A stretch of DNA of 41,758 nucleotides from Clostridia bacterium (GTDB lineage Bacteria; Bacillota; Clostridia; Christensenellales; UBA1242), in NCBI GenBank assembly GCA_017501645.1, contig JAFVWN010000038.1, positions 1 to 41,758 on the forward strand, written 5' to 3'. Positions 12,700-41,758 of this stretch are shown piece after piece. The notes under the pieces are model-generated. The model had not been told where the DNA came from, ran no database searches, and was given only the letters and a program-made list of their open reading frames with translations. The stretch's first letter is position 1, and every line of letters starts with the position of its first letter. A program made the position numbers and the translations under genes.

Positions 12700-13302
12700 T
12701 GTTTTTTAAGAAAATAGTTCTTTTTAGTTTATCAAGTTTTTTTTTCAAATTTCTTTTATGTGAATTGTTTATGTTTTTTTTGAATGCCAGAAAATGTTAT
12801 ATATACATTTATAAATAAAAGTCATAAAAATAAAAACTGCAAATGACATAAATATGTGTTAAAATACGGCTCTAAAGTGGTGTTTTGTAAGATAAAATAG
12901 GTGGGTATTCTATGTGTTTTAAATATATATGGCAGTAGTGTGTTGTTTTGTGTTTTGTTCTTGTGTAAAACCGTTGAAGATGGGTGTGTGTTTAATTATA
13001 AATATAATAAAAAACGCAAAAATAAAGAAAAACAAGTGAAAAACAATATCAAAACAACAAAATATAAAAATATTGTGCGTTTTTTTAGTTTTGGTGTTTT
13101 TGTCTTTGTGCTTTCAATTATGAGATAAAAAGCATATAAGTTAGGGTGTTTTTTTGTAGATTTAAAAAAGTAAAAAAAATATAAAATAACCCCTTAATTC
13201 GTTTGGAGTTTTTAAAAATATTTGATAAACTATAAATATATATAATATATATTTTGTCACAGGTGGTACATACTAAAGATAGTGGCAATAAAGGAAAGAG
13301 AT
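12700..13302 (+). other. Gene-free interval before the giant surface protein, with a long-loop hairpin
   Basis: About 600 bp of AT-rich sequence without a convincing gene. A 75-codon frame starting GTG at 12901 has two hydrophobic stretches but no good ribosome site or recognisable family. AAAAAACGCA (13009-13018) and TGCGTTTTTT (13076-13085) form a perfect 10-bp stem with a 57-base loop and a T-run, possibly a terminator for an unseen short transcript. A block at 13171-13197 resembles one upstream of the lipoprotein gene at 34060. Confidence 0.4.
13171..13231 (+). promoter_or_regulatory. Candidate regulatory block and promoter of the giant surface protein
   Basis: AAAATAACCCCTTAA (13183-13197) closely matches AAAATACCCCTTAA (33923-33936) before the collagen-like lipoprotein gene. 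A weak -35 TTGGAG (13203-13208), 17-base spacer and -10 TAAACT (13226-13231) follow, aligned like TTGACA/TAGACT at the other gene. An AT-only stretch with TATAAT at 13241 also exists, but without a well-spaced -35. Confidence 0.4.
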
Positions 13303-16300
13303 ATGTTTGCAACAACAAAGAAAAAAAGAATATTTTTATTATCAATGTTGATAACATTAATTGCTATAGTTTTTGTGGGGGTGGGGCTCGGAGTCTTCTT
13401 CTTAGTAAGAGACAATAACTCAATGACTCTAGCAAAGAGACAGGCTGTCTTTGGGCGGACTGTTAATTCTGCTGTGGTTGTTCCTGAGCAGGCAGAAATA
13501 GATTTGTCAAACCTTCCATCTGGTGTTGAAGCTAAAAATGTTGTTATGGCATCAGATAGATATTTTGTAATCAAAACAAATTCTTCAATCTATGTTGTGT
13601 ACGACAAAGAAACTTCTTCTTATGTTGATATTGGGTCAAAAGTAAACTTTAATAAGGTTGATGCAATATATGGTTCTTTAGTTGTTTTATCTTATGGTTC
13701 ACACATTACCTTATTTAATCTTACATCTTTAGAAGTTGTTGCCAATCTTTTGAATGTGAATATTATTTATGATAGCGGATTCTTACTATTGACATCTAAT
13801 AATAAAAACCCAATAACTGTTTATCAAGATTCAGTTGCTTTGGTTGATACATATGTTGCATTATTAAATGTTGAGAGTGGCGAGGTTGTTTTTGAGGCTA
13901 AGGGCAGTGATGATATTATTAATGTGACAATGTCTTATGGTATGTTGGTTGCATCTTATCCTTCTCGTACTGAGGTTTATAAATTATCAAACTCTTTAGT
14001 TTTGAAAAAGAGTTTTGAAAATAAAAATGAAATACAAGAAGGGACAAATGTTACAAGTTTAATCACAAACAAGGCTTATTATATGTCAAGTTATTACAGA
14101 GTGTTTGCAATTCATAATAACCTTGTGCTTATAGAAAAGTCTTATGTGGTTTCTAGTGCAGAGTATGATATTACAGGTCTACTATCTAATGGTGAGCATA
14201 GAAATTATAAAAACAGTTATTATGTTTGGGACTTGTCAAAAAATGTTCAATTTGATATTGACAATAACGGAATGATTCTTGAGGCCTTAGATGTTGATAT
14301 TTCAAGAAACTATTTTGCATTAGTTAGAGTGCCAATTAACCAAAAGACAGCTTTAGATAGTGAAAACAAGTTGATAACTTACTATCAAATAGTGAAAACA
14401 AAGAAAGGATATAAACTCGTTCAACTTGTTGAATACGATTATTCAAAGTTTGGACAAGTTATAGGTTATAACGGAAAAGGTTTATTTACAACTGGTACAT
14501 CAAATTCTGCTTATATTGGTTTTGATGGAGAAAAGGAGGATTTCAAAGCTCTTGAAGTTGAAAACTCAAAGATAACTCAAAGTACATACAATGATGTTGT
14601 GGTTGTTTCATCTGTACAAGGTGAAAAGAAACTTTATGACAATAAAGGTAATCTTCTTGTAGGAAAATTATTTACACAAATTTCACCATTTGTAGACGGT
14701 GGAGCTGTTGCATTATATGGAGACCAATACTATTTGGTTTCAAATTCAGGTCTTACAAGAATGATTAATGGCTTTGCCGAAGAGTTCTCGCAATATGTTT
14801 TTATGGGTATTGGATATTTCTTTGTTGGTGAAGAGGGTGCGTATAAAGTCTGTGATCACACAGGTGAAATTGTATACGATGATGTTAATGTCTCTCTTGA
14901 ATATAATCTAAACGCTCACAAAGTTATAATGGTTGTGCAAAGTGATAGTGTAAGTAAGGTAATAGAAATTACTCCAACCGAAGATGTTTTCTCTTCTAAA
15001 AACTTGATTGAGTATTTTAATACTTTCCAACAAGAAAGAAATTTTGCTCCGGCAAAAACTGCAGATGCAAGCGAGTCTATCCGTATAGATAGAACAGTAA
15101 ACTATCTTACAAAAACTGAAGACCAAAATGTTGGTGGTGTTGCTCAAATTTCGTACAATATAGGTTTTAGTAATTTGGATGCGTTGACATTTAAGCCGTA
15201 TGCTTCCCTTAACACAAAAGAAGCAAGTATGATACCTGGGTTTAACCAGGGGGCGACAGGGCAATATACATATAAGGTTGATGCTCCAAATGCTGGTGAC
15301 GGAAAGGAGCATACATATGTGTTTGAAGGTGCTTACTTTGTTGGTGATGAGGATTCTTATTATTCTCTTGCTCTTATGAGGCTTAACGAGAATGGTACTT
15401 TTTATTATATGGTTACTTTAGCGGTTAGAGATTCGTACTTGTCTAAGGTTCAAGCAGAAACAGCAAATAAATCAGGAGCAACAACAAATATGCTGTTCTA
15501 TGATTATAGAGTTGGTGTTATTAGAGAAGTTGATGTTCTTAGCGGAAATGATACTTTAGCGTTGTCTTATGCAGAGATGAAAACCAAGTTAGTTGCGACA
15601 ATGTGGCAGGAAGGCGGGTTGCCAAATCAAACGCCATATAAACCTAGTGGACAGGATAATATTACAATAACTCCAAGACAGGTCGATTTGGAATATGCAG
15701 GCTTTGATGGTGGACTTATATTTACTTCAACAGAAGCTAGTGCAATGAGCATTCAATTTACAATAAGAAACACTTATGAAGCGACTAATCAAAAATCAAA
15801 AGTTGTTGGCAATGGGGAAACTAAAGATTGCGGAAGATATACACTTTCTTATAGCGGTTCAACATTATCTGTTAATGTAAAACCAGGTTACTTCTTAACA
15901 TATTTTGATATTAATGTTGGAAACGCAACTGATGCTTTATATACAAATCTTACATCGGGCTCTTTAATAGGGTCAAGTGTAAATATAATTTCTTCGGCAA
16001 CATTTACTGTTCCGTACGCAAGTTATATTCAACTTACAGGAGTTACTATAGTTGAAAGTTTCTCACATCTTAATCTTATTAGATATAATAAGGATATAAG
16101 GGAGAAATTAGATGCAAGCGGAAATGTCGTGATGGATGAGGAAGACGAAGAACCAATTCTTGAGGTTTATGAGCTTGAAGAGTATGAAGAATTGGGAATG
16201 CTTTATTTCTATTATGGATATGGCTCAGATGTAAGAACTGAAAGAAATCCTGCGCAAATAGGATTTTTAGACTTTAAGAAAAGAACAAGTGTAGAAATAC

Positions 16301-19300
16301 CAGAAAAAGATGGTTATACATTTAAGAGTTATACACTTGTTAATATAGAAGAGAAAAATGTGCGTACGCAAGTCGTAGAAATTATTAACAAAGAAGGTAA
16401 TCTTACTATAATTCCAGGAACAGATGCGGTTGCTGGAGAAGAAAAGTATTATGCAGATAATTACTTGTTGCCAACATCAGGGTTAAGTGCTTATTTCTTA
16501 GAGGCAATATACGAAGCTAAAACATATACTATTAACTATTATATGGATAAGCACAACTATGATTTGGGAAGAAATGAATTGTGGGATTCAAACGATAATT
16601 TAACAAGAAAACAAATTTTAACAGAAATTAAGTATTTTGATTATATTACTGAACTTCACGATATAACAACAGATGATTATAACCTTGATAATAATCCTGT
16701 TCCAATGGCAGAAAGTTGTATTTATAGAGGTTTTGATTTCCAAGGTTGGTTCTATTGGGATGCAGAAAACGAAGAAGAAGTAGAACTTGAAATTGGAGAT
16801 ATTTATACAACTGTTGGAAATCTTAGAGTTTATGCTAAGTGGGAGGCTCAAGTTTACACCTTAGAATTTGATGCGAATGTGGGTGAAAATGGGGCATATC
16901 AAGATATAACTGTTGGTGGATATCCTTATAATATAGATTCTGCTTATTTTACAAAAGATTTTGATTACTATAATGACGAAGATCCAACATTGAATGTAAA
17001 TATTACAGCAGGATCGGAATTTGATCAAGATCAACCTATTGTTAAACAGATAACATATGCTGGTATGTATGGTTCTCTTCCAGCACTAGAAGGAAGGTCT
17101 GTTCAACCTAATAGTGGAATTGAAGAATATGTATTCCTTGGCTGGTATTTACATAAAGATTTGAATGCTGTAAATGATAGTTATGAATCACTAATTACAG
17201 GCGAAGATACTAATGGAAATCCAATAGTTAACTTGACAAGTGGTTCATTGGTTAACATTATTCCTCCAATTGTAGATGCGGAAACGGAGGAAAGAAAACT
17301 AACTATTTATGCACATTATAGAAGAATTGTTTATTCTTATACATTAACCTCTACTGTTGATTCAATGGCTTTAGGTGATGACAATAAGGAGTTGCCATTC
17401 GCATTAAAGTATACAGTTGAGGGCTCTACTGCAAAAGGTGTTAAAGCTCTATATTCTACAGATTCTAAATATGAATCTTATAATAAAGGTTCTTCTTATG
17501 AAGGACAGGATTGTAATAAGTGGTCTTTACAAGATGCGATAGATCCAACTTACACATTCTATATGGTTCAAGGTGAACAAGTAAAAATAAATGCCTTTGT
17601 TGGTGAAGGTTATTATGTTTCAGCAGTTGTATTCAAATTGCCTGATTACCGAGGTGGACAATATGAGGCAGTGATGAGAGGTCTTTGGGAGGCAGAAACG
17701 CAAGACCAATTTGAATTTGCTGAAGAATTAGAAGGGGAAATAGGTTCTGGTGTTGGTAATATAGAATGTTACTCTTCTGGTTTTAATATTCAGGTAATGA
17801 TGGAAGAGTTCTATGCTTCAATAGCAAACCATACAGATGTAAATCCTCTTTGTATAGATGTTGAAATTCAATTCTCGTCTATGAAATTTACTAATGAGTT
17901 TAATGTTTCAGGCGTTTATAAAGGAGAGGTTAAAGAGGGACAAGAACCTCCTGTTGTTGCGGGTGATGGTAGAGTAACAAATGAAAATGGTGAAATTATA
18001 ACAAAACAAGAGAACATTATATATGGATACACCAATACATATAAAACAATGTCAGGAGCATCTAGTACAAGTTCGAATGTTGCAAATTCATATTTAAAAA
18101 GCGTTACTTTAGATGATGTGACACTTATTACTTTTGAATACGAGTATGGATATGAAAGTGTTCCGTCAATTATTTCAACAACTCCAGTGTTCTATCATAT
18201 TATGTCTGCAAATGTTTCTCCAAAATCATCCGAGTGGAAAAAAGAGGGTGATGGAACTACTTATAAGACAGATACTTATGAGCTTGCTTTTGAGACAGAA
18301 ACAGGAACTTTAATATTTACATTGAAGTCAATTTATTATTATGTTAAGGCCGACACAAGCCTAAACTACTATGTTTACGAGTTAAAAATAAAGAGTAAAA
18401 AAGACCATTTAGTAGATGTTTGTTATGAAGATGTAAGGTCTATAGTTGAATTTAAACTTTATGATGTGGATTATTCAACTGAAGACAATGGCTTAATTCC
18501 AAACGAAGATACTGCAAGTATTCAAAAAAGAGCAACAATAACTGTTGCAGAGGGAACAAATAACTATAATGGTTATTACACTCAAGGAGAAGATACAATT
18601 TCTCCAACACAATATATAAGATATAATATATTACCAACAGAGAATTACTTTATTAGTAGTATATCTATTTCTTATAACGGAAGCGAAAGATATATTATTG
18701 CATTCCCAACAATAGCAATAAATAATGATGGTGGAAGTATTAACATTTCTCAAACGGCAGGCTTTGAAATTTATGGTGCGTCAAGTCCGTTGTTAAGAAA
18801 TGAAAATACAGTATTGTTTAAGTCAACAAATATAAGTGTGTCTTGGTTGAGCGGTAGAGGTTTTGCCGTAACAATTAATCAAATTAGACACAAAGTGGCA
18901 ATATCATTAACAATGCTTGAATATAAGTTATTCCAAGTTCAAACTCCGGGTTCAAATGATACAACTTTTGAAATCAATCAGGAATTAGCGAGTGCTAAAG
19001 GAAATAATTTCCCTACAAATGTTGCTATCCCTGCTGGGGTATATTACTATAAAGAAACGGGTGTTGTTGGTACAAGTCAAGAAACGATTACTTATTGTAA
19101 CTGGGTTATTGCCGGCAAGCAAGACGGGTTAGATACTATTACTGTTAAGCCTGATATTTCAGGTAAGATTGCTTATAAAGTAAGAAGTGTAATTCCTTCT
19201 GGAATGAATGATGTAATTAGAGTAGACGAAGATGGTTTTGCTCAATATGATACAACAAACACTTCTCAAAATGGTCATAAAGCTGCTGTTGAACTAGCTG

Positions 19301-22300
19301 TAGATACTGCAGGATTTTTGGTAAATAGCTATCTTGGTAGAGGCACTAAGAAACTTGACAGTATCATTGATTCAGGGATTGTTCCAAAAAATGATACAGA
19401 GGTTGGACATATTTACACTCTTGACTCAAACGCTTTTGTGTTTGGTGGCAAGCAAGGTCCGTTCTCTACAATTATGGCTACATATTGTGACCCAACGACT
19501 GCAGAATATGCAAACAAACAGTATGACAACGCATATATTAATGTTTCATTTACTGGTGGAACAATAACATTAAGTGTTCACGAAATTGAGGGCTATATGT
19601 TGTCTTCAATAATTGTTGAACTTTATATTGTAGAAGCTGGTACTGGTGGTGTTGGTGAGGCAACAAAAATTTACACAATTTTACCAGATGCTGTTGAGGT
19701 TTCATCATCTGGTTCACGAGTGAATATAACTATAACAATACCAAAACTTAAAAACTCACAATATGAGTTAAGAATCTTCCAAAAGCCAATTGAATATGAA
19801 GTAGTTTATGATAGTGCAAATAGTGCGGGAGATACAAATCCAGCAACGGGTACTGTTGAAAAAACTAAACATTTGTATAATGTTCCTTCAACTGTAAGAA
19901 CTGATGCAACTTATATTAAAGAGGGTTATACGGCTATTGGTTATTCTAAAGAAAAGAAAACAGGAAGTGACCTAACCGAAGCAGATTGTTATTTCTTATT
20001 GCCGGGTTTTGTTGATGATGCAGACAAAAATAAAAGTTCTGCCATAAATGAGAATTTATGGACTGGTACTGAGGCAACAGCGAATAAAACAGTGATTTTA
20101 TATGCTGTGTATAAAGCTAACGAATATAACATCATATATAATACTAATGATAATACAATGGGTAATGGTTCTTCACCAGCGGAGACAACTACCGAGATAA
20201 GCAAAACTGTTGTATTTGATAAACAATTTGGGGCACTTAATGTAATAAAGAGATTTGGTTATACTTTCAATGGTTGGTTTACAGCTAAAGAGGGGGGAAT
20301 CAAAGTTCAAGAAGGTAATACTTTAGATATTGAATTATTCAATAAGATAAAAAATCCTGAAGACGATAAATCTGTAATATTGTATGCTCAATATACGGCA
20401 AAAAGTTATACAATATCAATTATCCTAAATGATAGAGCGAATGGTAATGGTTCGTCTGATGCAGTTTGTGAGTCAGGAAGTTTAAGTCAAACGCTAACAT
20501 TTGATGATGACTCTAAAAAATTTGTTTATCCAACAATTACAAGAGTTGGTTATGATTACAAAGGTTTAAGAAGTGAAATGACTAATGCCATCGATGCAAA
20601 GGCGTTAACATCAGCAGACTATCTAAGTGCAACAGATTTCAATTGGCAATTTATGGTGTCAAGCGGGTTTGATAATGACCAAATAAATCAAATTGATAAT
20701 GCTCAAAGTATGATGGTTTATTGTACATATACACCAAAAGCGTTTAAGATGTATGTCAACTTAAACAACACAAAAATGGCAAATTATGGTGATGAAGTTA
20801 CTGTTGTATATGATGGTAGAAGTTATGTAGAAAAAGACCATTATGTAGACGGTTTAGAAATTACTATTGAATTTGATGCATTGCTTGGAACATTACCAAC
20901 TATTACAATGCAAGGTTATTCATTAATAGGTTTTTATCAATCTAAGTCATATGATAAAGAAAATATTGGCGTAGGTGCATTAAATGAGACTACACCATTA
21001 GATTTTGAATTGTTTGAAGTCTTAACATATACAAATTCTTCAAATGTAGATACGGCACTTAAGTCATTATATGAAAGCGGTAAATACACATTCTCAATTT
21101 ATGCTCAATACGGTATTAAAGAAATGGAAATTTCAACTACAGGTTCAACCGCAAGTATTGTCAAACTTGTGAATGGTGTAGGTAGTTATTCCGTAACAAA
21201 TGGTGCGTCATTTGGAAGTGGAAGCAATAGTGTTATTGGTGAGTATGGTTGTGATGCAATTGTTGATATTTTGCCAGCCACAGGATATTTTGTTTCTTCA
21301 TTAACAATATCATATGTTGGAGAGACTGGTGCAGGTGTTATTACAGTAATATTCACATTTGACAACCAAAAAGAACAAGTTTCATATGTTGCAAGCGGTG
21401 GTGTTTCAAGTGGGATTGGCTCATTTGGAAAGTTGAATGGTGATTATGCAACTGTTGCTGAGGGAATGTATCTAATGCATACCGGATATAGTCAGTATAC
21501 AAATAGCTTAAAAACTTTTAGGGTTGTTTTAGGCTTTGAGTATGTAATGGAAAGCATATCTGTTGAGGTTACAGAAACACCATTATTGTTTACTGCAACA
21601 TTTATGGTTCCAAATACTAGCGGTTGGGAACAATACACGCAAAAGCTAGTGCCATATGGCTCTAAAAACTTTGATAGTGATATAACAAACCCTTCATTAG
21701 TAGGAAAATCATTTATGTATTGGAGTACTGACAAATCAGGAAATGGAGTGTTAGACTCATCTGTAACAATTGTTACCAATACATCTTATTATGCACACTT
21801 TGTTGATGAAAGTGCTTCAGCTTCTGTGTCATTCTGGATATGGAATCCAGAGGCTGGATATTATGAACTTATAGAAACCGTCAATGGTAGTGGGGAGTTC
21901 TCAGGGGCTATGCCTAGTCCATCAACAGATGCTTGGCCTGGTGGAAGCTCTTACTATTTCTCAGGATGGCAGGTTTTAGGATATAAACCAAGTTCTCCTA
22001 TATATAGAGAAAGAGGTAACTTTGATGGTGAGTATCAAGTTTACGGAGAACTAAATGTTTATGCTTGTTATCATAACAAAGGATTTACAGAACCATCTTA
22101 TTCTACATCAGTAAAAGCAGTGACAGGAAATGCTACTTCTAACGGGTCACCATCAATTAGTAGTAATAAAAACTTTACTTTGAGTGATGTTGGAAAAACA
22201 GTCAAAGATTATTATTACTATAAGAAAAAAGTTACTTTCAGAGTTACTATTAAAACTGTAGATTTATACAAGTATGAATATAATAGGACGGGAGAGTATT

Positions 22301-22767
22301 CACCTGTTAGATTCTATGATTATGTTACATATGTTGCAGAAATTCCTTCTTCAAGTTCTGGAAACATTTCGTCTGCGTTAAGCAGTAGGCAACGAACAGT
22401 TTCGTCTCCAAGTGGTAGTCAAGATATTGATATTGATTCTTATACATATTCTTATACAGTAACTTATACATATAAGGTAGTAAAAAAGACGAGAACGGTA
22501 AAAAAACAAGAAGCAATAAAAGATGAGGAAGGAAATGTAACTGGATATAAGGATGTTTATGTGAAAGAAGATTACGCAACAACAAGTTATCAAGGTTCCT
22601 CAAGTACTGAATCAACTAGGAAAAAAGAGGCGTATAATGCATTAACCACAAAGACACATTACTTTGTTGCATATCTTTCTCCAAGAGAAAAAGGGGTTAA
22701 TCATGAGTCATTTAAGTATTTGAGTAGATTCCCAGTTTTCTTTACTTTGAAGTTCCCTTCTCCATAA
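13303..22767 (+). CDS. Giant membrane-anchored surface protein with InlB-type repeats
   Basis: 3154 residues, starting at ATG 13303 behind AAGGA with 7-base spacing; an in-frame GTG at 13282 is poorer. KKKR followed by a hydrophobic segment (10-34) forms a signal anchor, so the rest is probably outside. Residues about 40-600 alternate short beta strands (YDNKGNLLVGKLFTQISPFV type), suggesting WG- or propeller-like repeats. From about 1075 come InlB B-repeat/Listeria-Bacteroides (Flg_new) units: YTINYY...FQGWFYW...LRVYAKW, YTLEFDANVG...FLGWYL...LTIYAHY, then more near 2163-2370, 2480-2595 and 2763-2920 (FNGWFTAKEGG...ILYAQYTAKSYTI). The last ~230 residues are Ser/Tyr/Lys-rich. There is no LPXTG or second membrane segment, so anchoring is by the N-terminus. 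These repeats are known in adhesins and internalins of Gram-positive bacteria; adhesion is inferred. No frameshift is seen in 9.5 kb. The next lipoprotein gene carries a related repeat. Confidence 0.8.
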   Translation: MFATTKKKRIFLLSMLITLIAIVFVGVGLGVFFLVRDNNSMTLAKRQAVFGRTVNSAVVVPEQAEIDLSNLPSGVEAKNVVMASDRYFVIKTNSSIYVVYDKETSSYVDIGSKVNFNKVDAIYGSLVVLSYGSHITLFNLTSLEVVANLLNVNIIYDSGFLLLTSNNKNPITVYQDSVALVDTYVALLNVESGEVVFEAKGSDDIINVTMSYGMLVASYPSRTEVYKLSNSLVLKKSFENKNEIQEGTNVTSLITNKAYYMSSYYRVFAIHNNLVLIEKSYVVSSAEYDITGLLSNGEHRNYKNSYYVWDLSKNVQFDIDNNGMILEALDVDISRNYFALVRVPINQKTALDSENKLITYYQIVKTKKGYKLVQLVEYDYSKFGQVIGYNGKGLFTTGTSNSAYIGFDGEKEDFKALEVENSKITQSTYNDVVVVSSVQGEKKLYDNKGNLLVGKLFTQISPFVDGGAVALYGDQYYLVSNSGLTRMINGFAEEFSQYVFMGIGYFFVGEEGAYKVCDHTGEIVYDDVNVSLEYNLNAHKVIMVVQSDSVSKVIEITPTEDVFSSKNLIEYFNTFQQERNFAPAKTADASESIRIDRTVNYLTKTEDQNVGGVAQISYNIGFSNLDALTFKPYASLNTKEASMIPGFNQGATGQYTYKVDAPNAGDGKEHTYVFEGAYFVGDEDSYYSLALMRLNENGTFYYMVTLAVRDSYLSKVQAETANKSGATTNMLFYDYRVGVIREVDVLSGNDTLALSYAEMKTKLVATMWQEGGLPNQTPYKPSGQDNITITPRQVDLEYAGFDGGLIFTSTEASAMSIQFTIRNTYEATNQKSKVVGNGETKDCGRYTLSYSGSTLSVNVKPGYFLTYFDINVGNATDALYTNLTSGSLIGSSVNIISSATFTVPYASYIQLTGVTIVESFSHLNLIRYNKDIREKLDASGNVVMDEEDEEPILEVYELEEYEELGMLYFYYGYGSDVRTERNPAQIGFLDFKKRTSVEIPEKDGYTFKSYTLVNIEEKNVRTQVVEIINKEGNLTIIPGTDAVAGEEKYYADNYLLPTSGLSAYFLEAIYEAKTYTINYYMDKHNYDLGRNELWDSNDNLTRKQILTEIKYFDYITELHDITTDDYNLDNNPVPMAESCIYRGFDFQGWFYWDAENEEEVELEIGDIYTTVGNLRVYAKWEAQVYTLEFDANVGENGAYQDITVGGYPYNIDSAYFTKDFDYYNDEDPTLNVNITAGSEFDQDQPIVKQITYAGMYGSLPALEGRSVQPNSGIEEYVFLGWYLHKDLNAVNDSYESLITGEDTNGNPIVNLTSGSLVNIIPPIVDAETEERKLTIYAHYRRIVYSYTLTSTVDSMALGDDNKELPFALKYTVEGSTAKGVKALYSTDSKYESYNKGSSYEGQDCNKWSLQDAIDPTYTFYMVQGEQVKINAFVGEGYYVSAVVFKLPDYRGGQYEAVMRGLWEAETQDQFEFAEELEGEIGSGVGNIECYSSGFNIQVMMEEFYASIANHTDVNPLCIDVEIQFSSMKFTNEFNVSGVYKGEVKEGQEPPVVAGDGRVTNENGEIITKQENIIYGYTNTYKTMSGASSTSSNVANSYLKSVTLDDVTLITFEYEYGYESVPSIISTTPVFYHIMSANVSPKSSEWKKEGDGTTYKTDTYELAFETETGTLIFTLKSIYYYVKADTSLNYYVYELKIKSKKDHLVDVCYEDVRSIVEFKLYDVDYSTEDNGLIPNEDTASIQKRATITVAEGTNNYNGYYTQGEDTISPTQYIRYNILPTENYFISSISISYNGSERYIIAFPTIAINNDGGSINISQTAGFEIYGASSPLLRNENTVLFKSTNISVSWLSGRGFAVTINQIRHKVAISLTMLEYKLFQVQTPGSNDTTFEINQELASAKGNNFPTNVAIPAGVYYYKETGVVGTSQETITYCNWVIAGKQDGLDTITVKPDISGKIAYKVRSVIPSGMNDVIRVDEDGFAQYDTTNTSQNGHKAAVELAVDTAGFLVNSYLGRGTKKLDSIIDSGIVPKNDTEVGHIYTLDSNAFVFGGKQGPFSTIMATYCDPTTAEYANKQYDNAYINVSFTGGTITLSVHEIEGYMLSSIIVELYIVEAGTGGVGEATKIYTILPDAVEVSSSGSRVNITITIPKLKNSQYELRIFQKPIEYEVVYDSANSAGDTNPATGTVEKTKHLYNVPSTVRTDATYIKEGYTAIGYSKEKKTGSDLTEADCYFLLPGFVDDADKNKSSAINENLWTGTEATANKTVILYAVYKANEYNIIYNTNDNTMGNGSSPAETTTEISKTVVFDKQFGALNVIKRFGYTFNGWFTAKEGGIKVQEGNTLDIELFNKIKNPEDDKSVILYAQYTAKSYTISIILNDRANGNGSSDAVCESGSLSQTLTFDDDSKKFVYPTITRVGYDYKGLRSEMTNAIDAKALTSADYLSATDFNWQFMVSSGFDNDQINQIDNAQSMMVYCTYTPKAFKMYVNLNNTKMANYGDEVTVVYDGRSYVEKDHYVDGLEITIEFDALLGTLPTITMQGYSLIGFYQSKSYDKENIGVGALNETTPLDFELFEVLTYTNSSNVDTALKSLYESGKYTFSIYAQYGIKEMEISTTGSTASIVKLVNGVGSYSVTNGASFGSGSNSVIGEYGCDAIVDILPATGYFVSSLTISYVGETGAGVITVIFTFDNQKEQVSYVASGGVSSGIGSFGKLNGDYATVAEGMYLMHTGYSQYTNSLKTFRVVLGFEYVMESISVEVTETPLLFTATFMVPNTSGWEQYTQKLVPYGSKNFDSDITNPSLVGKSFMYWSTDKSGNGVLDSSVTIVTNTSYYAHFVDESASASVSFWIWNPEAGYYELIETVNGSGEFSGAMPSPSTDAWPGGSSYYFSGWQVLGYKPSSPIYRERGNFDGEYQVYGELNVYACYHNKGFTEPSYSTSVKAVTGNATSNGSPSISSNKNFTLSDVGKTVKDYYYYKKKVTFRVTIKTVDLYKYEYNRTGEYSPVRFYDYVTYVAEIPSSSSGNISSALSSRQRTVSSPSGSQDIDIDSYTYSYTVTYTYKVVKKTRTVKKQEAIKDEEGNVTGYKDVYVKEDYATTSYQGSSSTESTRKKEAYNALTTKTHYFVAYLSPREKGVNHESFKYLSRFPVFFTLKFPSP

Positions 22768-40046: not shown

Positions 40047-40076
40047 ATTTTCAATAAACATAAGAGGTATTTGATT

Positions 40077-40556
40077 ATGAAAAAAATAATTTATATTTTA
40101 TTATTACTTATAGTTCCGTTTTCCTTTTTAAGTGGTTGTAGTTTGTTTGGTGAAAGCAAAAAATATTATGATATGAATCAATCATTTACTTATAACGATG
40201 TAGAATTTAAAATCACAAATTTAAGAGAGGGACAAAGTTTTACAACGACAACAGGTTCAACAGAAACAACAGAAAACTACTTTATATTTATTGATATTTG
40301 GATGAAAAATAATGGTAAAAACGCATTCGATGTTAGGACTTCCACTTTTTCTATTGTGATAAAAGAAACCGAACAAGTAATTTCTTACTACCCAGGATAC
40401 ACTTATTTATATCCAAATAATATTGTAAGAGCAGAATTGAATCCAACCTTTTCTGGTTCGTATAGCATTGTTTTTGAGGTTTCACAACCAACTAGTTCTT
40501 GTAATTATCAATTAAGAGTTGGTGAAAATATTTTTGTTAATCTAAATGCAAATTAG
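40077..40556 (+). CDS. Lipoprotein with DUF4352-like Ig-fold domain
   Basis: 159 residues from ATG 40077, with AAGAGGT 8 bases upstream; an in-frame TTG at 40071 is less likely. Signal peptide with lipobox LSGC (Cys 21). The mature part has the DUF4352/telokin-like order: a strand VEFKITNLREG, a polar loop, then NYFIFIDIWMKNNGKNAFDV (the 'vdv.vkNng' core) and later strands ending VGENIFVNL. Such domains occur in exported Gram-positive lipoproteins of unknown role. The downstream gene starts one base after, or overlaps, its stop and lacks its own ribosome site, so the two are translationally coupled and probably work together, although one is exported and the other looks cytosolic. Confidence 0.75.
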   Translation: MKKIIYILLLLIVPFSFLSGCSLFGESKKYYDMNQSFTYNDVEFKITNLREGQSFTTTTGSTETTENYFIFIDIWMKNNGKNAFDVRTSTFSIVIKETEQVISYYPGYTYLYPNNIVRAELNPTFSGSYSIVFEVSQPTSSCNYQLRVGENIFVNLNAN

Positions 40557-40557
40557 T

Positions 40558-41391
40558 ATGAATGTATATATAGACAAGTATTTAAACGATGATACAATAA
40601 TTATTCATAAAAAAGATTCATATCCTAAATCTTGGATAGATTATTTAAATTCTAAAAAAAAGTTTTTGAAAAAATATAGATATGTGGAAACTTTTAATTT
40701 TAATAAATATGAAAAGTTAAAACAAACAACAGGATATGCAGACCCTTTTCTAAAAATGAATAAATACCATGTTAAGTATGAAGAATATTTTAATGAGTTT
40801 CATAATATTGTAAAAAATACCCATTTTACACTTATTTGTTATCATGCTACAAGACTAACAAAATATGAAGTTAATGACATAAGAGAAAATGGTCTAAGAT
40901 GTTTCGATAAAGAAACTATAACAAAAAAAATTGATTTGTTATACAACAATAAATATATCAGTTTAAAAGAAAAAAATTTTTTAATCAAAAAAAATCTATT
41001 AAATCAAGAACAAGATAGGGCTAATAAAATCTTTTATGTAACCGGTTATTATGACATATCATATAATAGCCATAACAAAAGTTTTATTTTCGATTGTTTA
41101 AATAATTATGGTGGAGAAATTATTTATAATTTAACAGAAAACGCCAAGTTGCTAGAAAAATTAAAAAGTCATAGTAATCCATATATAGTTATTTTACAAA
41201 TCAATAGTAAAAAAATAGATACTTATCAGTTAGCCAACTTGATATTTAAAAATTTTAATTCTAAAACTTTAAACTTTATCTCTTGTTGTGAAAATTCATG
41301 TACAAATATTTCATCAATTTTAGATATCGTAAGTGTAAATAAAAATAGTAAAATTGTATATGCTAATATAAATAAAAAAACAAGCCTTTAA
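40558..41391 (+). CDS. Unknown protein with possible ADP-ribosyltransferase fold
   Basis: 277 residues from ATG 40558, the second base after the upstream TAG; ATG 40546 would overlap that gene by 11 bases and add four residues. Neither has a ribosome site, so translation depends on coupling. The centre has ICYHATRL (Y95-H96-A97-T98) followed by EVNDIRENGLR and, near 160-190, IFYVTGY and NNYGGEIIY (E187). Y-H-x-T, then I-x3-GL, an aromatic strand and a later Glu are reminiscent of PARP/KptA-like ADP-ribosyltransferase folds (H-Y-E type). This is motif-level inference only. Very Lys/Asn/Ile-rich and AT-richer than most genes here, suggesting transfer. No signal peptide. Next to the double R-x4-H protein and an RNA-like array, a defence or toxin role is a reasonable hypothesis. 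Confidence 0.45.
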   Translation: MNVYIDKYLNDDTIIIHKKDSYPKSWIDYLNSKKKFLKKYRYVETFNFNKYEKLKQTTGYADPFLKMNKYHVKYEEYFNEFHNIVKNTHFTLICYHATRLTKYEVNDIRENGLRCFDKETITKKIDLLYNNKYISLKEKNFLIKKNLLNQEQDRANKIFYVTGYYDISYNSHNKSFIFDCLNNYGGEIIYNLTENAKLLEKLKSHSNPYIVILQINSKKIDTYQLANLIFKNFNSKTLNFISCCENSCTNISSILDIVSVNKNSKIVYANINKKTSL

Positions 41392-41430: not shown

Positions 41431-41467
41431 TAAATAAAAAAGACTAAATCGGGGTTCGATTTAGTCT
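41431..41467 (-). terminator. Hairpin terminator after conserved RNA element copy 1 (minus strand)
   Basis: AGACTAAATCG / CGATTTAGTCT is a perfect 11-bp stem with a 5-base loop (41441-41467). On the minus strand it is followed by TTTTTTATTT, as expected of an intrinsic terminator. On the plus strand no T-run follows. Confidence 0.75.
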
Positions 41468-41472
41468 CAATA

Positions 41473-41590
41473 TGGTGCTGGTGGGGCGACTCGTTAAGAA
41501 AACTCACCAGTGGTGAGTTTTTAGACAAAGCCGAGTGTGATTTATAATCATACTCCGGAGGGCGCTAGGCGACCACCTAAAAACGCTTAA
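41473..41590 (-). ncRNA. Unrecognised structured RNA element, copy 1
   Basis: 118 bp, about half GC in AT-rich surroundings and with no open frame of interest. Identical at all 118 positions to 41641-41758. It can fold as several helices: a perfect hairpin ACTCACC-AGT-GGTGAGT extended by A/T pairs, a second hairpin GAGTGTGAT / ATCATACTC with flanking CC/GG, and an outer GGTGG / CCACC pairing that would close a three-way arrangement. Minus-strand orientation is chosen because a hairpin with a U-tract follows the element only in that direction. No promoter was seen immediately before this copy. It does not match any riboswitch, tRNA, tmRNA, SRP or 6S pattern that I know. Confidence 0.55.
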
Positions 41591-41592
41591 TT

Positions 41593-41633
41593 TAAATAAA
41601 GAAAAAAACGATTGTATACCGTCACAATCGTTC
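41593..41633 (-). terminator. Hairpin terminator after conserved RNA element copy 2 (minus strand)
   Basis: AACGATTGT / ACAATCGTT is a perfect 9-bp stem with an 8-base loop (41607-41632), extended by GAAG/TTTC-type pairs. On the minus strand it leads into TTTTTTTCTTTATTT. Its sequence is unrelated to the terminator of copy 1. Confidence 0.75.
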
Positions 41634-41640
41634 TTCTAGT

Positions 41641-41758
41641 TGGTGCTGGTGGGGCGACTCGTTAAGAAAACTCACCAGTGGTGAGTTTTTAGACAAAGCC
41701 GAGTGTGATTTATAATCATACTCCGGAGGGCGCTAGGCGACCACCTAAAAACGCTTAA
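41641..41758 (-). ncRNA. Unrecognised structured RNA element, copy 2
   Basis: Second copy of the 118-bp element, identical to 41473-41590, ending exactly at the window edge, so it may be longer or followed by more copies. The period is 168 bp, with 50 bp of unrelated sequence between copies. See copy 1 for structure and orientation. Confidence 0.55.

Follow-up and report, generated by a model that had tools for sequence, protein, structure and literature searches.

A probable gene-less mobile element at tRNA genes in a family of Clostridia

The window, by which we mean the whole stretch of 41,758 nucleotides from a Clostridia bacterium contig, ends in two identical units beside a tRNA gene end, and each unit contains a hairpin sequence that we call element X. 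We consider X probably to be a small, non-autonomous mobile element without genes, which inserts in the arms of tRNA genes and whose long target duplication keeps one tRNA whole. A more far-reaching proposal is offered tentatively: X might be a kind of mobile DNA that has not been described, in which a single strand folded into a hairpin of about 70-110 nt enters conserved tRNA arms on either strand at a CC step and a duplication of about 50 bp rebuilds the tRNA, with a host enzyme and a mechanism unlike those of standard transposases, integrases or integrons, the inverted copy at the left end being the trace of that mechanism.

Results

The window locus and the source genome

The first-pass annotation of the window, made from the sequence, reported two identical 118-bp repeats followed by unrelated hairpins. 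The repeats (41473-41590 and 41641-41758, 168 nt apart) are indeed 100% identical over 118 nt, which is a lower bound for the repeat since the second copy stops at the window edge. The hairpins at 41441-41467 and about 41609-41634 are unrelated to each other, and both have their T runs on the minus strand, so the array locus reads leftwards. The statement about the hairpins holds for the outer one (41441-41467), the only one of the two that is unlike the terminator found on contig C38 of the same genome, but not for the spacer at 41591-41640: these 50 nt agree at 44 of 50 positions with the terminator that immediately follows the genuine tRNA-Leu(caa) of C38. Each repeat opens with 12 nt that are the reverse complement of the tRNA-Leu(caa) 3' end, and the boundary between repeat and spacer therefore differs from that drawn before. 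The features are as follows.

41437..41467, minus strand: distal terminator hairpin (41441-41467) with T run; sequence and fold
41473..41484, minus strand: copy of the tRNA-Leu(caa) 3' end (CCACCAGCACCA), with no difference from that of the C38 tRNA (59631-59716)
41483..41548, minus strand: first copy of element X over the 66 model positions, which take in the end of h1 and the core hairpin with its two internal loops; model R1, 82.1 bits, E 1.3e-19
41549..41590, minus strand: left part of the inserted unit (upstream hairpins); sequence and fold
41591..41640, minus strand: spacer, a terminator hairpin with T run after the tRNA end copy; compared with the C38 tRNA-Leu terminator
41641..41652, minus strand: second copy of the tRNA-Leu(caa) 3' end; sequence and comparison with the C38 tRNA
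41651..41716, minus strand: element X, copy 2; model R1, 82.1 bits
41717..41758, minus strand: left part of the second unit, incomplete at the contig end; comparison with the identical copy

The order on the minus strand is tRNA-Leu, terminator, unit, tRNA stub, terminator, unit, tRNA stub and an unrelated terminator, the last of which is taken as the chromosome's original terminator downstream of the tRNA-Leu gene.

Among the 67 contigs of the source genome one further match to the unit is found, at the very end of C38, where the real tRNA-Leu(caa) (59631-59716) is followed by the related terminator. After this comes the first part of another unit, with a single base different from the window copies. 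The array thus has at least two units, and probably three or more. Both contigs end inside the array; C38 and C35 can be placed side by side through it (end of C38, right end of the window), and the ending of the window contig fits tandem copies beyond short-read resolution. Contig C61 carries a second, strongly diverged two-unit array beside tRNA-Thr(cgt). The X of the two arrays are only 0.54 alike, and the arrays are old relative to each other.

Structure of element X

In the aligned sequences the hairpin of X begins with a closing stem, is interrupted by two conserved internal loops and ends in a variable tip, mostly with a 3-nt loop; a second hairpin precedes it. In the alignment 98.5% of the cells are paired, and the covariation is 0.403 as compared with 0.082 +/- 0.012 after shuffling, a level reached by 0 of 500 shuffles, with slid controls at 0.032 or less. 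The closing pair alternates between C-G and G-C across copies, and in the window X a rare U-A replaces an inner G-C pair, both sides being changed. Alignment A1 omits 7 of 58 sequences and A2 omits 10 of 58 (odd or variant parts); the invariance of the core on its 3' side is partly by construction, as the pattern used for selection fixes that side. The 66-position model R1 covers just half of hairpin h1.

The terminal stem pairs of X comprise 2 G-U, 284 Watson-Crick and 39 mismatched pairs, and those of tRNA acceptor stems 24, 617 and 3, respectively. The near lack of G-U in this variable stem is a weak hint that the folded form is DNA and not RNA.

Several variants were observed. In five loci (L013:1304-1391, L067, L098, L110 and L136) the first internal loop contains an extra insertion between GGCTT/CGCTT and GCTAAAAAC; the loop may be able to expand at this position. 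Partial, diverged X-like hairpins near the main X (L237:4125-4160, on the opposite strand, and L200:4150-4185) suggest a second subfamily. Copies of X stand in direct tandem with 74-100-nt spacing and no tRNA piece between them in L098, L079 and L082.

Distribution

A DNA search with the window unit in 197 genomes of the family gave matches in 53 of them (threshold E 0.01, weak matches counted), the better ones being to the shared core. With model R1 and strict filters X is found in 98 of the 197 genomes and in 30 of 42 genera. A pattern search yielded at least 118 stretches in named genomes, mostly of uncultured Clostridia and many from gut samples, and at least 90 distinct ones pass a loose core filter. 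Across the phylum, R1 at E 1e-5 finds X in only 2 of 299 genomes, namely the source genome and one weak match. Of 100 distinct X in other Clostridia, outside the family, 19 have a tRNA nearby and the remaining 81 have none. Among these 81 many stand, by inspection, directly before a short CCC-loop-GGG palindrome; this pattern rests on inspection, as a simple hairpin score of the flanks barely exceeds the control (median stem 5 vs 4).

This distribution bears on two suggestions of the first-pass annotation: that the arrangement superficially resembles a repeat-spacer array, and that the identity could prove an assembly artefact at a contig end with only two copies in existence. Identical repeats at a contig end do look like either. 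The artefact is contradicted by the 98 genomes, some of them in few contigs (3 in G027 and 8 in G052). The likeness to a repeat-spacer array does not go beyond appearance: X is single at many tRNAs, the spacers are host tRNA ends and terminators and not foreign DNA, and the source genome is without Cas1. A CRISPR-like array or an artefact is refuted on these grounds, and we give it practically no weight.

Carriage by phages or plasmids was rejected, since no X and no convincing match was found in phage and plasmid records; pattern searches in IMG/VR gave one match, which lacks the core, and no X. The open reading frames within 4 kb of 125 X (109 loci) show no shared protein family beyond ordinary genes. 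A known Rfam family was likewise rejected: the window end has weak matches only (E 3.7 or worse), and six other loci match tRNA only. One of the weak matches, to GP20-b at 41529-41589 (plus strand), is full-length with a similar 3' end, scores 16.1 bits against a gathering threshold of 36.2, and is probably due to chance; the left-end motif TTTTTAGG, which this match prompted us to count, occurs in 6 of 74 sequences against a shuffle mean of 3.3, not above chance. No published description of X was found in the literature covered, most subscription journals being outside this coverage, and X appears to be an element family that is nowhere described in that literature or in Rfam.

Linkage to tRNA genes and points of insertion

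The flank statistics refer to the fetched loci, which were picked among the best matches. There, 67 of 88 X lie within 350 bp of a tRNA gene, mostly 56-128 nt away, while 21 have no ARAGORN tRNA within this distance. Of the linked copies 35 are on the 3' side on the same strand and 23 on the 5' side on the opposite strand; altogether 29 of the 67 are on the strand opposite to the tRNA.

X is bordered by pieces of the tRNA itself. Directly after X at least 10 nt of the neighbouring tRNA are present in 62 of 76 cases (9 of 1192 control stretches), and to the left of X a reverse-complement tRNA match of at least 10 nt is present in 41 of 76 (1 of 1192 controls). The left side often consists of the reverse complement of a tRNA arm followed by the 5' half of the arm; G128 provides examples in its copies at Ser, Leu and Arg tRNAs. 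The starts of the matches are concentrated at fixed points. On the same strand (n=36), the distance of the start from the tRNA 3' end is exactly 16 nt in 23 cases (T arm) and 47-48 nt in 7 (anticodon arm); on the opposite strand (n=24), the distance from the tRNA 5' end is 19-20 nt in 14 cases (D loop) and 44 nt in 3. The match begins with CC in 45 of 60 cases. No 10-nt tRNA match was found for 13 of the 73 X examined for start points.

The RNA-like covariation and the regular distance to the tRNA could be expected if X were an RNA gene or processing element of the host, functioning beside tRNA genes and inherited with them. We regard this reading as improbable: it has to accommodate the opposite orientation of so many linked copies, the frequent tandem arrangement, the failure to find X in half of the family genomes, and a likeness among copies that tracks the genome more than the isoacceptor.

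Evidence on mobility

Within a genome, copies of X that lie beside different tRNAs can have an identity of 88-100% (up to 0.91-1.00 in G128, G071, G133, G013 and G022), each with flanks of the local tRNA. The mean for same-genome pairs is 0.763 (46 pairs, 8 of which are the own-genome comparison, repeated through overlapping loci); between genera the mean is 0.68, whatever the isoacceptor. The identity between loci strongly suggests that X moves from one tRNA locus to another, although gene conversion could also produce it.

The tRNA-Leu(caa) locus of genus g20 provides an orthologous comparison. X is present there in G059 (two copies), G025, G165, G172, G182 and G185, and was not found in G128:C28 and G158:C13, where the same gene lies upstream of the tRNA. 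Measured from the match ends, the distance to the downstream gene varies among the X-bearing species: 332 bp in G059, 1235 in G185, 2168 in G172, 3476 in G025 and 3920 in G182; the extra genes are not counted as cassettes, because no second X bounds them. An X-gene-X arrangement was seen twice (at tRNA-Ser of G128 and in G144). By its presence and absence at an orthologous site, together with target duplication, X would count as a mobile element in the broad sense.

Target duplication and terminators

In the best-preserved last copies the direct repeat continues past the tRNA end to a total of about 44-66 bp; long duplications are found in L201, L186, L180, L237, L228, L222, L184, L189, L182, L224 and L188. 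Earlier it had seemed that the duplication stops exactly where the mature tRNA ends, and hence derives from tRNA; this view is weakened, as the well-preserved cases span the terminator or the upstream region. In 32 last copies the terminator after the stub has a median identity of 0.60 to the tRNA terminator (background median 0.53, 95% at 0.62); about half of the terminal copies are at the background level, so a duplication that includes the terminator is only partly seen. The outer hairpin of the window is among the last copies with an unrelated terminator. Elsewhere, divergence or replacement has affected the terminators.

In L225:3978-4216 and L228:3813-4054 the tRNA terminators and their copies look homologous and differ by compensatory changes in the stems; owing to these changes, we presume that terminator stems may evolve fast.

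Candidate enzymes

Five enzyme classes were counted in 25 genomes, all chosen as bearing X and considered with no X-free control set, and none of the five correlates cleanly with X. The tyrosine recombinase domain PF00589 is present in 24 of the 25; G027, which is 100% complete and has 5 X matches, contains just a broken PF00589 fragment. Serine recombinases are found in 14. The reverse transcriptase PF00078 is found in 8 and is absent from G007, G027 and G128, all of which have well-preserved X. Cas1 is absent from the source genome and from 22 of the 24 others (present in 2 of 25). The Y1 transposase PF01797 occurs in 4, the source genome included, and this count does not support derivation from RAYT/REP or IS200-IS605.

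The tyrosine recombinases call for consideration of an integron-like site, i.e., of X as a folded single strand recombined in trans by such an enzyme, for which the tRNA arm would be the primary site, gene cassettes being present between X copies now and then. A folded hairpin with conserved internal loops, the PF00589 protein in nearly all X-bearing genomes and the genes between two X in G128 and G144 all agree with it, and tRNA arms are classic sites of tyrosine integrases. However, Xer proteins are nearly universal and hence uninformative, and G027 keeps its X with a fragment only. In most copies the tRNA piece next to X is that of the local tRNA even though X appears to move between tRNAs, so the tRNA part is made at the target and is not carried. 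Finally, an excerpt of PMC3053210 defines attC by an inverse core RYYYAAC and a core GTTRRRY that frame the palindrome. This pair is found in 0 of 88 X on either strand, and identity with attC was rejected. We find the integron-like site unlikely.

A retroposon-like element copied through RNA would account for the long, variable target duplications and for the inverted, target-derived sequence left of X. The scarcity of reverse transcriptase among X-bearing genomes and of G-U pairs in the terminal stem, as compared with tRNA acceptor stems, is against it, and we hold it to be slightly less likely still than the integron-like site.

With one integrase as the query, relatives close to X were detected in two loci only, L274 and L237, in both cases after the stub. 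In L274:2730-3747 (G185) a tyrosine integrase gene starts directly after the truncated tRNA-Leu stub behind X; in L237:3963-5440 (G168) such a gene follows a third tRNA piece, near X. The tRNA stub behind X may thus be a landing site for other elements. A further proposal is that X with its stub is kept as a decoy that spares the true tRNA from integrating elements. We deem such a role very improbable, since there are no more than these two cases and the ends of tRNA genes are hot spots of insertion in any event.

Discussion

The first-pass annotation offered modular insertion of units with differing spacers as one of its explanations, and this is now well supported, the units having been inserted at a tRNA gene, where each is accompanied by a copied tRNA end and, usually, by a terminator. 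For the preferred reading, a non-autonomous mobile element, we infer the following order of events. X would insert at one of the defined points of the tRNA gene: in the T arm ahead of its 3' strand, in the anticodon arm, or in the D loop when it enters on the opposite strand. The insertion would produce a direct duplication of about 44-66 bp that begins at the insertion point, extends beyond the tRNA gene and takes in the terminator (or the upstream region). A whole, expressible tRNA gene would thereby remain on one side, and X with a tRNA stub on the other. Tandem arrays would arise by repeated insertion at one tRNA or by recombination between the direct repeats. In the window two X units would have been placed beside tRNA-Leu(caa) in this way; the inner spacer would be the terminator that was duplicated along with the tRNA end, and the old chromosomal terminator would survive as the outer, unrelated hairpin. 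A putative enzyme would act in trans on the folded single strand of X. Directly observed are the structure of X, its linkage to tRNA genes, the fixed points of insertion, the duplications and the presence or absence of X at one orthologous locus; movement, the sequence of events and an enzyme acting in trans are deduced from them.

X shares features with several known systems. Like integron attC sites and cassettes, it is a folded hairpin with conserved unpaired bases and a variable tip, forms tandem arrays and sometimes has genes in between; it differs in the absence of the RYYYAAC/GTTRRRY cores, in the tRNA target, in the duplication derived from this target and, apparently and as a rule, in having no linked integrase. 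Like palindromic repeats of the REP and MITE type (GTAG and CGTC REPs; RAYT), it is short, gene-less, intergenic and hairpin-forming; CGTC REPs also have no linked transposase, and the X outside the family are often beside palindromes. It differs from this type in the 3-nt loop, the two internal loops, the longer unit, the few copies per genome, the targeting of tRNA arms and the duplications of 44-66 bp. The CGTC REP, according to an excerpt of PMC3733652, has an 8-9-bp stem, a 4-5-nt loop, an unpaired CGTC tag and a CCA tail. X carries ...CGCGTCGC but, with its 3-nt loop and two internal loops, does not correspond to that description.

Phages and islands that integrate into tRNA genes by tyrosine integrases also use a tRNA target, regenerate one tRNA copy and come with a terminator of their own, as in X. 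X differs from them in being gene-less, about 110 nt long and able to use any of many tRNAs on both strands. Non-LTR retroposons and SINEs are non-autonomous and generate long, variable target duplications, again as in X, which is distinguished by the apparent lack of a consistent reverse transcriptase and perhaps by DNA-like pairing. CRISPR arrays and casposons have the same repeat-spacer look, and each insertion duplicates the target; the differences are that 23 of the 25 X-bearing genomes have no Cas1 and that the spacers of X are host tRNA ends. We know of no bacterial element that uses almost any tRNA gene with neither an integrase of its own nor a tie to a single tRNA.

Should X move in the way proposed here, a parasite without genes would have a safe harbour in bacterial tRNA genes, much like that which some eukaryotic elements find in theirs. 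Its mechanism can be put to a direct test by way of the fixed insertion points, the inverted left end and the duplications of about 50 bp. X may also account for the breaking of some gut assemblies of this family at tRNA genes.

Other features of the window

A DUF4352 lipoprotein-like gene and a gene for a 281-aa protein (40071-41391, plus strand) directly adjoin the array; the 281-aa protein has no Pfam or PADLOC match. An open reading frame of 3161 codons at 13282-22767 (plus strand) has a sub-threshold match to Flg_new (Listeria-Bacteroides repeat), and its product is probably a large surface protein.
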